Part shown: positions 5,972-39,145 of the stretch, in pieces
How positions within the stretch are numbered: position 1 is the first letter of the stretch
Layout: the number at the start of each line of letters is the position of its first letter
NCBI RefSeq assembly: GCF_030532915.1
Contig: NZ_JAUNKD010000008.1
Span: 1 to 41,930, forward strand
Reading direction: 5' to 3'
From: Capnocytophaga sp.
Lineage (GTDB): Bacteria; Bacteroidota; Bacteroidia; Flavobacteriales; Flavobacteriaceae
Length of the DNA: 41,930 bases
Notes under the pieces: generated by a model
Databases searched by the model: none
Told to the model about the DNA's origin: nothing
The model's input: the letters and a program-made list of their open reading frames with translations, nothing else
Translations under genes and position numbers: made by a program

Positions 5972-5987
5972 TGTTCCACGTGGAACA
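5972..5987. promoter_or_regulatory. parS: parS site 2 (ParB binding)
   Basis: Identical 16-bp palindrome TGTTCCACGTGGAACA, with the same flanks (AA before, TTTT after) as sites 1 and 3. The T-run after it might also help terminate ogt, but a perfect palindrome without a loop is a poor terminator, so the parS reading is preferred. Confidence 0.85.
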
Positions 5988-6165: not shown

Positions 6166-6181
6166 TGTTCCACGTGGAACA
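6166..6181. promoter_or_regulatory. parS: parS site 3 (ParB binding)
   Basis: Third identical TGTTCCACGTGGAACA, 178 bases after site 2 and 117 bases before the methyltransferase ATG. Confidence 0.85.
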
Positions 6182-17189: not shown

Positions 17190-17335
17190 ATAATGAATAA
17201 TTTTTCAATTAACAAATAACAATGAGAGGAATGAACAAATATTCAATGAACAAATAATAATGAGGATTAATTGCGCTATTCCAAAAATTGTTAATTGATA
17301 ATTGTTCATTGTTAATTACCCTCGTTGTTAATTTT
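17190..17335. repeat. Repeat element L: heptamer arms around a 31-bp core
   Basis: A 31-bp core at 17263-17293 (AGGATTAATTGCGCTATTCC then AAAAATTGTTA) has on its left AATGAAC/AACAAAT-type heptamers and on its right the reverse complements (TTGTTAA, TTGATAA, TTGTTCA). It therefore forms a large imperfect palindrome. The same element recurs at 17718-17866 beyond the S23 gene. Confidence 0.8.
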
Positions 17336-20893: not shown

Positions 20894-20919
20894 ACAAACC
20901 GAACAGATGAATATAAATA

Positions 20920-21072
20920 TTCTTCTTATGTAGAAAACAATTCTTCAAGTGAAGAAGAATATTCTCTATATGTAGAATTAAATTCTTCGTATGAAGAGAT
21001 AAATTCTACTAATGAAGAACAGCTATCTTCATCAGTAGATAAAAATTCTACGGGTGTAGAATAGAATTCTAT
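20920..21072. repeat. 21-bp tandem array A of palindromic units
   Basis: Seven units of exactly 21 bp begin at 20920, 20941, 20962, 20983, 21004, 21025 and 21046, with a partial eighth at 21067. Each is a dyad of the form TTCTWC-4 bases-GWAGAA plus a 5-base linker. The second unit holds the perfect palindrome TTCTTCAAGTGAAGAA. In one frame the array reads as a Ser/Glu/Asn heptapeptide repeat, but that frame starts inside the MITE. Confidence 0.85.
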
Positions 21073-21133
21073 ATCTGTTTTATTTATGAAATAGTAATTT
21101 TATTGAATTTATTAACCTAAAAATCAATTTACG

Positions 21134-24097: not shown

Positions 24098-24167
24098 GTA
24101 GAGACGCAATTTATTGCATCTAATATAAAATTTATTAGATTTGAGATGTAATAAATTACATCTCTAC
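24098..24167. mobile_element. MITE-like element, GTAGAGACG family, copy 1
   Basis: GTAGAG (24098) and CTCTAC (24162-24167) are inverted ends. Inside are the sub-palindromes ACGCAATTTATTGCATC and GATGTAATAAATTACATC. Confidence 0.7.
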
Positions 24168-24171
24168 GGAG

Positions 24172-24276
24172 GGAAAGATTTCCTGAATGTTAGGAAAGGT
24201 TTCCTAAGTCTTGGGAAAACTTTCCGATGGCTTGGGAAAGGTCGCCCAAAGCTTGGGAAAGATAATTTCTTACAGA
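24172..24276. repeat. 21-bp tandem array B of palindromic units
   Basis: Five units of exactly 21 bp begin at 24172, 24193, 24214, 24235 and 24256. The first three each start with a 12-bp dyad GGAAA-2 bases-TTTCC; the last two keep GGAAA and partly lose the right arm. The linker has the form CTNNNNNCTTG. It contains stop codons in the frames checked, so it is not coding. Confidence 0.85.
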
Positions 24277-24360: not shown

Positions 24361-24461
24361 GTAGAGACGCAATGTATTGTATCCGGTGTGGATTTTATTA
24401 TATTTAAGATGTAATTTGTTATATTTGATATGATTTATAACATAGTTTATTACATCTCTAC
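24361..24461. mobile_element. MITE-like element, GTAGAGACG family, copy 2
   Basis: GTAGAG (24361-24366) and CTCTAC (24456-24461) are inverted ends. The interior is longer than in copy 1 and partly diverged (TAAGATGTAATTTGTTATA). It ends about 40 bases before the glycosyltransferase ATG, so it lies in that gene's leader. Confidence 0.65.
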
Positions 24462-24504
24462 GAAAGATTAACAAAACCAAAAACTAATTAAATCAGACTA
24501 TTAA

Positions 24505-36723: not shown

Positions 36724-37050
36724 ATGAACATCAAAAATGCGCAATTAGAAGTAGATAACTGGATAAAACAACACGGAGTCAGGTATTTTAATGAGCTTAC
36801 CAATATGGCACAACTCACCGAAGAGGTGGGGGAGGTTGCCCGCATCATTGCCCGCCGTTACGGCGAGCAGTCCGAAAAGGAAAGCGATAAGGATAAAGAC
36901 TTGGGCGAGGAGCTTGCCGATGTTGTCTTCGTGGTTTTGTGTCTTGCCAATCAAACGGGAATCGATTTGCAAGCGGCTTTTGACCGTAAAATGGATAAAA
37001 AAACCAAGCGCGACCACGACCGCCATCACAACAACGAGAAATTAAAGTAA
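36724..37050 (+). CDS. MazG-like nucleotide pyrophosphohydrolase
   Basis: A 108-residue all-helical NTP pyrophosphatase with one MazG domain. The metal-binding motif ExxE is in AQLTEEVGEVARIIARRYGE and the second acidic set in LGEELADVVFVVLCLANQTGIDL. The C-terminus is very polar (KTKRDHDRHHNNEKLK). Such enzymes hydrolyse non-canonical or excess NTPs to NMP and PPi; substrate unknown. It is monocistronic, and a 0.4-kb tandem array begins 24 bases after its stop. Confidence 0.88.
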   Translation: MNIKNAQLEVDNWIKQHGVRYFNELTNMAQLTEEVGEVARIIARRYGEQSEKESDKDKDLGEELADVVFVVLCLANQTGIDLQAAFDRKMDKKTKRDHDRHHNNEKLK

Positions 37051-37074: not shown

Positions 37075-37473
37075 AAGCTGTAAAATACAATTATATAGCC
37101 ATAAAAACGATTCAGCAAGGTGTAAAATGACATATTACAGCTTGCTGAATTTGTTTTATAGCTTGTTTATTGTTTTTTCTACCAGTAAAATAAAATTTTC
37201 TTGATAGAAAATGTAATTATACTGCTTGATTATTGAATTTTCTATCAGTAAAATAGAATTTTCTTGATAAAAAATATAATTATATTGCTTGATTATTGAT
37301 TTTTCTATCAGTAAAATAAAGTTTTAGTACTAAAAAATATAATTTTACTGCTGGGTTATTCTGTTTTCTATCTAAAAAAGAATAGTTACTTGCTGTTTTA
37401 TTACATTTTTAATCAGTAAAAAATAATTTCCTTGCTTGAAAATTTAATTTTACTGCTATTTTATTAAAAAGTT
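37075..37473. repeat. 21-bp tandem array C, 19 units
   Basis: Nineteen consecutive units of exactly 21 bp run from 37075 to 37473 without a length change. Most carry AAAAT-3 bases-ATTTT or a close variant (for example 37187-37199) preceded by a TWGCTTG/TATCAGT-type linker. Units also match better every third unit, giving a 63-bp higher-order period (37180, 37243, 37306). Stop codons are frequent, so it is not coding. It fills the gap between convergent mazG-like and M28 genes. Confidence 0.9.
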
Positions 37474-37522: not shown

Positions 37523-38983
37523 TTATAAAAATTTATAGGTAATCGAAAGATATGTTCCGGATTGGAAAATTGTTTCTGATGGTAAGATGGAAGAAAAAGA
37601 ACGTCGGTAGGTGAGGGTAAGCGCTACATTTAAGGCTTCGAGACCACAACCGAGGCTATATCCCCATTCATTAGCTTTAAAATCAGCAGTATTTAAAGAA
37701 ACACTTGCATCTTTTGCACTGAAATTATGTCGGAAATAAGGTCCGGCAAATAGAAAAAACCGATCGCTTTTGCCCGAAAGGGAAGGGGTTCCCAGTTCAA
37801 TGTTTAGGGGAAGTGTCAGCGAGTGTCTTTTAAAGGTTCCGTTTGCTGATTTACTTGTTGTATAATCATATAATGCTTCCAAACTCAAATGGGCAGCACG
37901 CGAGAGCTTATAATTTAAATGTAAACCGCTTGCATAAGCAAATGAAGTCTTTGCATTGTAGTGTTTTTCTTTATAAAGATGATTGCCAACGCCCAAATCA
38001 AGCACAAAACCCATTCGGAAGCGATGGCTGAGCACGTTTTCACGCCGGCGAAGTTTGTTCAGATGCCGTATTGCTTTTATTTCGTGCGGTTGATTGGCAA
38101 GTTCGGTCAGTATGTTTGTCATAAACTGATTTATTGTAACCATTCCTTGATAGTCAAGTAAATCTGCCTTGTCAGAATGTTGATGATAGGGTGATTTTGT
38201 TCCGGTAAATACGTGTACGGCGGGGATTCCTTTCGCTCCGAAGGGCTGGGTGTCTGTGCGTTGTTCAATTTCGTTGTTAATTTTAAAGAGTTGCAGGTTG
38301 CCTGAATGTTTTTCAGCCAGTTGTTTTCCGTTTTCAAGGGTTTGAATTCCTTTTAATTCCAGTCCGTTATTGGCTTGAAGCATCCCGACCATATCAAAAC
38401 CGAACATTGCCTTTATGCTTTTCAGTTTTTCGTTGCCTAACTGCTTCACAAAATGATTTGACCCCCGTAAACCGCTTTCTTCGGCATCAAAAGCGATGAA
38501 AATAAGGCTTCGTTTGGGATTATTTTCAGGTTTTGCAAAATATTTTGCCAGTTCAATAAGCATTGCTACTCCCGAAGCGTTATCGTCAGCACCCGGATAG
38601 ATATTTTTTTCATCATTTTCAGATAAATTATATCCTAAATGATCATAATGAGCACCCAAAACGATGTATTCATCTTTTAAAATAGGGTCTGTACCTTCCA
38701 CAAGCCCGATTACGTTGGTGGCATTTACTCTTGCCAGATAAAATTGCAAAGGGAATGCTTGCAGATAGTTTTCAACGAAAGGTTTTAGCCCTGCGAGGGC
38801 AAATTGTTCTTTGATGTAGGCGGTGGCTAAGTTTTTTCCGTCAGTGCCTAAACCTCTTCCTTCAAGGGCTTCGGATGTAAGATAATCCACGTGGTTTTTG
38901 AAATCATCAGGATTGGAAGTTTGAGCAGTAATAAAACAAAAACCGGCAGTAAAAAACAAAAATAATGCAAGATACGGTTTCAT
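37523..38983 (-). CDS. M28 zinc aminopeptidase-like protein with C-terminal beta-barrel-like domain
   Basis: A 486-residue secreted protein. A signal peptide (KPYLALFLFFTAGFCFITAQ) leads into an M28 peptidase at residues about 25-300: metal ligands in LGAHYDHLG (His112), PGADDNASG, AFDAEESG (catalytic Glu-Glu) and FGFDMVG, and a final His in YHQHSD. After a linker rich in Arg/Lys (about 305-322), residues 325-486 form amphipathic strands ending GTYLSITYKFL, as in small outer-membrane barrels. M28 proteins normally end near residue 300, so this is a fusion; the barrel may anchor the peptidase to the outer membrane. ATG at 38983 is chosen because it starts the signal peptide. Confidence 0.85.
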   Translation of the reverse strand: MKPYLALFLFFTAGFCFITAQTSNPDDFKNHVDYLTSEALEGRGLGTDGKNLATAYIKEQFALAGLKPFVENYLQAFPLQFYLARVNATNVIGLVEGTDPILKDEYIVLGAHYDHLGYNLSENDEKNIYPGADDNASGVAMLIELAKYFAKPENNPKRSLIFIAFDAEESGLRGSNHFVKQLGNEKLKSIKAMFGFDMVGMLQANNGLELKGIQTLENGKQLAEKHSGNLQLFKINNEIEQRTDTQPFGAKGIPAVHVFTGTKSPYHQHSDKADLLDYQGMVTINQFMTNILTELANQPHEIKAIRHLNKLRRRENVLSHRFRMGFVLDLGVGNHLYKEKHYNAKTSFAYASGLHLNYKLSRAAHLSLEALYDYTTSKSANGTFKRHSLTLPLNIELGTPSLSGKSDRFFLFAGPYFRHNFSAKDASVSLNTADFKANEWGYSLGCGLEALNVALTLTYRRSFSSILPSETIFQSGTYLSITYKFL

Positions 38984-39145
38984 ACGATAAAGTTTATTAA
39001 AAAATATGGCAAATTTACGTGTAAATTCAGCAAAAAACAATACGGATTTATTAAAATGTTTTTTGTAATTTTGTGGCTTTGTAAAGTATTGAAGGGTTTG
39101 TGCTAATTTTTCGTGCTAAAATTTTTAGTTGCCGAAAAAAATACG

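Follow-up and report, generated by a model that had tools for sequence, protein, structure and literature searches.

In the window (the whole stretch of DNA that was analysed, 41,930 nucleotides), a non-coding tandem array of 21-bp units lies between a MazG-type nucleotide pyrophosphohydrolase gene, which ends 24 bp before the array starts, and a convergent gene for an M28-family peptidase (Table 1). The units of this focal array run head to tail outside genes, in agreement with the definition of a non-coding minisatellite (a tandem repeat with a unit of 10–60 bp). Two further arrays are found in the same window. In the M28 ORF (37523–39040), the N-terminal half is Peptidase_M28, and the C-terminal part resembles outer-membrane beta-barrel families at scores slightly short of the Pfam cut-offs (PF13505, E 3.7e-6); M28 and a beta-barrel in one ORF would, if real, be an unusual fusion.

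Table 1. Features of the window discussed in the text, with positions counted from the first letter of the window.
Feature	Position	Strand	Remarks
Second window array, period 21/42	20904..21078	.	Sequence unlike that of the focal array; dyadic units TTCTWC-N4-GWAGAA (by eye)
Third window array, 21 bp	24108..24263	.	Other sequence (GGAAAGGTTTCC type); adjoins a long nested palindrome
MazG-type nucleotide pyrophosphohydrolase gene, left neighbour	36724..37050	+	Pfam PF03819, E 4.6e-16
Focal array, 19 units of 21 bp, super-period 63 bp	37075..37473	.	Non-coding
Left part of the focal array, imperfect palindrome	37082..37178	.	Two 48-nt arms, 77% complementary, including a local hairpin
Most regular part of the focal array, 63-bp block (3 units), 3.4 copies	37161..37372	.	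TRF: 85% matches, 0% indels
Peptidase_M28 gene, right neighbour, convergent	37523..39040	-	Pfam PF04389, E 1.5e-42

The original prediction had described 37075–37473 as an array of strict 21-bp spacing with a 63-bp super-period, and autocorrelation confirms both periods. Identity within the array is 0.489 at lag 21, 0.499 at lag 42 and 0.646 at lag 63, and the autocorrelation exceeds 0.45 at 21 and its multiples only. The shuffled-sequence control that had been proposed as a refutation fails to reproduce the lag-21 signal: 1,000 dinucleotide-preserving shuffles gave a lag-21 identity of 0.332 ± 0.023 with a maximum of 0.410, and across lags 5 to 99 the top identity among the first 300 shuffles was 0.429. 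When each 21-bp unit was scored against the profile of the remaining units, 18 of the 18 core units of 37091–37468 were at offset 0, that is, in phase. Compared with the array consensus, the units mismatch at 127 of 378 positions, an agreement of 66%. Besides the 63-bp block of Table 1, TRF reported a second row within the array (period 21, 37187–37281, 64% matches, 10% indels). The focal array is thus a real, diverged 21-bp repeat, and it is one member of a class of arrays usually spaced by multiples of two helical turns. The claim that length is held better than sequence, with a period of two helical turns, is supported, and gains strength from the 21-bp quantum that seemingly unrelated arrays have in common.

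The consensus unit consists of an AAAAT-N3-ATTTT dyad followed by an 8-bp stretch, and is nearly palindromic, each unit having two dyad centres, since the array is a direct repeat that carries one dyad. The dyad is exact in four of the 19 units, has at most one mismatch of 10 in nine and at most two in 11. The units average 2.21 mismatches, and 300 shuffles, taken in their best register, average 5.42 with a minimum of 4.83. A dyad in most units, as originally proposed, is therefore a fair description at the looser threshold, whereas a strict version of the claim fails. The suggestion that one face of the DNA carries all the dyads likewise stands in part: the common face follows from the 21-bp period, but a good dyad is missing from some units. 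A CRISPR array was rejected for the focal array, whose diverged units are contiguous and without spacers.

The wider class was surveyed in the genome of the window (G000), from which 61 stretches with 1,027,970 bases (13,603 N) were sampled, or 1.03 Mb of 2.66 Mb (39%). This sample is non-random: contig C75 and the window, both known beforehand to contain arrays, are part of it. Intergenic regions (IGRs) were defined as everything outside ORFs of at least 100 codons, so that the gene calls are long-ORF calls rather than annotation; an IGR passed with a local repeat score of at least 25 at any period from 8 to 130. A strong local repeat was found in 40 of the 460 IGRs. The best period was exactly a multiple of 21 (21, 42, 63, 84 or 126) in 24 of these 40 and at most 1 bp from a multiple in 33, the remaining seven having best periods of 11, 38, 44, 45, 59, 77 and 128 (one each). 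Counted by period, score 25 was reached by 13 IGRs at 21, 19 at 42, 10 at 63, 13 at 84, four at 105 and nine at 126; the other tested periods with at least two IGRs were 22 (2), 43 (4), 44 (2), 62 (2), 64 (2) and 85 (6), and shuffled IGRs gave 0.02 per period at this score. When intergenic identity was pooled over 382 kb of the sample, the peaks fell at lags 42, 84 and 21 (z 7.9, 7.7 and 6.0 against shuffles). An odd multiple of one turn (31–32, 52–53, 73–74) was the best period in none of the 40 IGRs, and the monomer is therefore two turns rather than one.

Several of these numbers depend on how the arrays were detected. A list of 36 arrays used for other comparisons was selected with periods 21, 22, 42, 43, 44, 63, 84 and 85, some members being best elsewhere (59 in L038); only the IGR scans over many periods therefore bear on the choice of period. 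Fixed-lag identity favours indel-free arrays, and one array (L141) drifts out of phase along its length. TRF gives no support for the 21-bp quantum, because weak two-copy repeats cluster near 20–22 bp everywhere: the share of non-coding repeats with a period of at least 20 that lie no more than 1 bp from a multiple of 21 is 32/43 in G000 and 3/5, 5/8, 10/15 and 7/10 in other samples, and 10/12 in the ORFs of G000. Within ORFs, most repeats of about 21 bp are weak and comprise two copies, and the strong ones occur in short ORFs (112 and 128 codons), which resemble arrays in which one frame is free of stops. At the start of contig C10 of G000 (L042, 80–487), an 84-bp block of 21-bp units with complementary arms is present in 4.9 copies with 94% matches; this array is recently expanded. 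In neighbouring IGRs of contig C76 (L156, 881–1010 and 1667–1791), a palindromic block occurs in two copies 84 bp apart with non-repeated filler, a helical spacing without contiguous units.

Most arrays look unrelated to each other in sequence. Dyad symmetry exceeds that of column-permuted copies, which preserve direct repetition and composition, in 13 of 36 G000 arrays (no more than 5 of 200 permutations doing equally well); the other 23, and all three G017 arrays tested (0/3), have no dyad beyond this control. When 26 arrays were aligned by rotation and strand, a weak common 21-bp consensus emerged, with an A-tract and a T-tract ~8 bases apart (score 1.606 vs. 1.327 ± 0.059 in 40 column-permuted sets, maximum 1.410). 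A clear motif, AAAATTNAATTTTACTGATA or CTGC, is common to a few arrays: the focal array and L030 in G000, and L047 and L057 in the sister Capnocytophaga genome G017. One exact 15-mer is common to the focal array (37115) and L030 (15651), where it lies 93 bp past another array. This 15-mer aside, a limited pattern scan revealed no leader, tail or terminal inverted repeat common to the arrays. A candidate leader, TTGTTTTATAGC, was rejected: of its 33 matches at no more than one mismatch in the G000 sample, only three are close to arrays.

Both neighbouring genes are known for 24 arrays; 21 of these are flanked by same-strand genes and three by convergent genes, and no array is flanked by a divergent pair. 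Divergent IGRs make up 43 of 206 among IGRs of at least 200 bp, and the absence of all 24 arrays from them would arise by chance with a probability of ~0.004 (hand calculation). On the sense strand, AT skew is 0.175 in the 21 tandem-gene arrays versus 0.008 in 165 other tandem IGRs (p 0.0005); their GC content is also lower (0.261 vs. 0.315, p 0.002), and GC skew does not differ between the two sets (p 0.27).

The site downstream of mazG was examined in 19 of the 34 matching genomes, and the array is absent in all 19 (17 congeneric, one from the same family and one from the same order). In G008, the mazG and M28 genes are adjacent with ~120 bp and no array between them; for a comparison of element ends and target duplication, made by eye, this array-free site is too diverged. 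For a second array (L132), the 420 bp upstream of the homologous gene are without an array in 15 of 15 genomes, the gene order there being unchecked. Any role would therefore be lineage-specific or loose. The five best lag-21 scores downstream of mazG in relatives (11.6 to 19.4) stay under the threshold of 25 and sit in genes, four in the acidic tail of a minus-strand gene that we take to be recA and the fifth in another ORF. The sequence TTTTACTGATGAAAAAA, conserved in four relatives, resembled a single-copy array unit; it was rejected, as it spans the start of a gene, presumably receptor-like.

The search for similar arrays elsewhere, also suggested at the outset, found them in the same genome and, in smaller number, in one sister genome. 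In 400-kb samples of three sister Capnocytophaga genomes (G003, G017 and G018), G017 has two IGRs per period at 21, 42, 63, 84, 105 and 126, and G003 has no period with at least two IGRs, its pooled lag-21 signal reaching z 4.7 nonetheless. In the G018 sample, 11-bp arrays predominate (23 IGRs at period 11, eight at 22, two at 21). No period was represented by at least two IGRs in 200 kb of either of two order-level relatives, and none of 52 IGRs in a 150-kb E. coli control scored 20 or more. Pairs of AAAAT-N3-ATTTT at spacings of 21, 20 and 22 bp number 20, 13 and 7 in G000 (focal array included) and 13, 4 and 6 in G017, with no consistent excess at 21 bp in 18 further genomes. Among 79 other loci beyond Capnocytophaga, mostly of Flavobacteriaceae, eight IGRs reached score 20 at period 21. 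Clear two-turn (21-bp) dyad arrays, each with its own sequence, are those of Flavobacterium dankookense (L189) and F. silvisoli (L190); the others are heptamer-type (L233, L240, L256) or weak (L213, L225, L229), and period 14 is as common as 21 among these loci (nine IGRs).

The sister Capnocytophaga genomes thus contrast a one-turn quantum (G018) with a two-turn quantum. The 11-bp intergenic arrays of G018, such as AGTGGCTCTAC, extend to 11.5 copies (L086 15295–15383, L091 101–222, L103 13216–13342). In G003, 4.6 kb (L084, 13212–17791) are occupied by a diverged 77-bp repeat with ~59 copies and 71% matches, mostly outside ORFs of at least 70 codons.

Curvature was predicted with a wedge model. 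The predicted ratio of end-to-end distance to contour length is 0.609 for the focal array and 0.841 ± 0.078 for column-permuted copies (z −2.96), and the array is predicted to be more curved than shuffles (z −3.1). Removing one base from each unit, or adding one, weakens the predicted bend (ratio 0.72). By prediction, the focal array is intrinsically curved DNA, having phased tracts and more curvature than composition-matched DNA. Across 36 arrays (33 of G000 and three of G017), nine are predicted to be more curved than 95% of their column-permuted copies, and the arrays at 20904 and 24108 are predicted to be straighter than their controls. In 27 arrays, predicted curvature drops when the units are shortened to 20 bp and does not drop when they are lengthened to 22 bp (p 0.68). 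The common denominator of the arrays is thus, on these predictions, two-turn length and not curvature, because few pass, two of the window arrays are straighter and a 22-bp unit bends equally well.

The original prediction had offered a transcript with regular small hairpins as one reading of the focal array. An RNA-level element, in which transcribed arrays fold into serial or long hairpins and act in 3′ regions through termination or mRNA stability, would agree with folding energies below those of shuffles (z −4.7 and −6.2 for the two focal strands, −5.6 and −5.1 for the other two window arrays) and with the A-richness of tandem-gene arrays on the sense strand. Both strands fold, though, as any dyad would make them do. 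Regular small hairpins are opposed by the pairs within units of the focal array, which do not covary (z −1.2), so that the dyad is a property of the consensus; within-unit covariation exceeds z 3 in just two of 19 stretches tested (3.8 and 3.3). Neighbouring units of the focal array do covary (z 3.6), a signal confounded by the duplication of 63-bp blocks, from which it could arise, and the other seven of eight selected arrays stay below z 2. An Rfam search of the window at gathering score found no match in the array (its sole match was a tRNA elsewhere), and RNA hairpins would have no need of a 21-nt quantum. We regard an RNA-level role as unlikely. A decayed coding repeat, with 21 bp as seven codons, would explain a period divisible by three, and a 112-codon ORF in G017 does span a 21-bp array. 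A coding origin of the focal array was nevertheless rejected on account of stops in all six reading frames (longest open stretch 55 codons, minus strand), which also uphold the claim that the array is non-coding; best periods of 22, 43 and 85 occur in the class as well, and this origin is very improbable. A MITE-like mobile element that carries a minisatellite, comparable to BrickBuilt of Porphyromonas gingivalis, could account for an array that is present in G000 and missing between the same two genes in G008, for similar motif-A arrays at further loci of G000 and G017, and for the 15-mer shared with L030. Against it, the limited scan found no common leader, tail or terminal inverted repeat, the shared 15-mer falls in the 21-bp register within the focal array, and most arrays look unlike one another. 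A plasmid search gave no match, and the five phage records that matched all did so through a single segment of 58 bp (Bacillus phages AR9 and PBS1), probably by chance. Such an element is considerably less probable than an RNA-level role.

Our leading explanation, held tentatively, is that the arrays form a two-turn intergenic minisatellite class, amplified in blocks, whose phase is kept by a constraint at the level of DNA. Period, phase and block structure, multiplicity in the sampled 39% of the genome, and absence between divergent genes (24 cases) and from the relatives examined are observations; from them we infer a possible function in protein binding, bending in the cell or an effect on neighbouring genes. 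The monomer would be 21 bp, or two turns of B-DNA. Arrays would grow as whole blocks (42, 63, 84 or 126 bp) duplicate in tandem; sequence would then drift and come to differ from array to array, with the two-turn phase retained, most likely for a role that the DNA itself plays in the spaces behind genes. The dyads and phased AT tracts may bend the DNA in one direction or, alternatively, present repeated low-specificity sites on one face to a putative oligomeric protein of the nucleoid type; either would result in a local bend or barrier. Nearly as likely, and a close second, is neutral or selfish satellite turnover, in which slippage or unequal exchange, homogenisation of blocks and decay shape the arrays, and the 21-bp quantum reflects how duplications form rather than a function. 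Turnover would fit the higher-order repeats (63, 84 and 126 bp), of which several are near-identical (94% in L042), the arrays missing at the corresponding sites examined in relatives and an abundance that varies strongly among the 400-kb samples of G003, G017 and G018. Weak repeats of ~21 bp are, moreover, common in ORFs too (10/12 in G000, 7/9 in G003), and the detection of arrays at fixed lags is biased towards those free of indels. Slippage alone, however, explains no single quantum across arrays of differing sequence, and the ORF repeats are mostly weak and two-copy, although selection against genic repeats could explain this too; the absence of arrays from divergent IGRs (0/24) also speaks against turnover. 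The interpretation put forward in the original prediction, binding by a nucleoid protein or regulator or else a hairpin transcript, is thus partly supported.

If selection keeps the 21-bp quantum, many non-coding loci would conserve DNA geometry over sequence and be missed by motif searches and alignments, and the array class would allow one to test directly whether the helical phase of intergenic DNA serves a function in bacteria. Should the quantum be mutational, tandem duplications in this lineage would form in two-turn steps, and a mechanism for this would itself be needed. A bolder proposal, which we consider rather doubtful, is that dozens of intergenic arrays are maintained in some Flavobacteriaceae through selection on geometry instead of sequence, that they expose bent or dyadic DNA on one face in the spaces behind genes, and that a shape-recognising oligomeric protein reads them. 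Such arrays would constitute a sequence-agnostic, phase-coded chromosomal element built of two-turn units, with length fixed and sequence free.

The nearest described element is BrickBuilt of P. gingivalis, which consists of imperfect tandem 23-nt units at many intergenic loci, with predicted long stem-loops; it is one sequence family with a leader and a tail whose inverted-repeat ends resemble those of insertion sequences (PMC4596501). The arrays described here are likewise imperfect tandem repeats of ~two-turn units at many intergenic loci, and long stem-loops are predicted for them too. They differ in having a 21-bp unit, in differing among themselves in sequence (a minority with motif A, and a weak common pattern) and in that shared ends were not seen in our limited scan (PMC4596501). 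Heptamer direct repeats such as TAACTGA are described from intergenic DNA of Beggiatoaceae, Cyanobacteria and Bacteroidetes, in their main host mostly just upstream of start codons (PMC4679880). They resemble the present arrays as intergenic direct repeats that are absent from close relatives sharing gene order, and differ in their 7-bp unit, the focal array having a period of 21 and its multiples (PMC4679880). The 10–11 bp A-tract periodicity of bacterial intergenic DNA is, as the abstracts of two papers describe it, a statistical signal across whole genomes whose period is one turn (PMC516772, PMC3940949). Helical phase is borne by AA/TT or A-tracts in both cases, but ours are discrete arrays with a two-turn monomer and a repeated sequence (PMC516772, PMC3940949).

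The original prediction knew of no comparable repeat in Flavobacteriaceae, and this fits our literature search, in which no description of 21-bp arrays in Capnocytophaga was found among the open-licence papers searched. Iterons and operator or centromere arrays (parC, plasmid iterons) also place dyadic or direct sites at helical spacing on one face of the DNA, with one sequence bound by one known protein that is often encoded alongside. The present arrays differ from these in that their sequences vary and no protein is linked to them.

Other repeats were observed in the window. Two long imperfect palindromes (24098–24168 and 24361–24462), which start with GTAGAGACGCAAT and end with ATTACATCTCTACG, overlap and follow the array at 24108 within one IGR and resemble a dispersed palindromic element distinct from the array. 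A short run of period 7 (17286–17317) lies apart from the 21-bp arrays. Finally, TGTTCCACGTGGAACA is present in two copies in one IGR (5972–5987 and 6166–6181), which look like parS sites of the ParB chromosome-segregation system.
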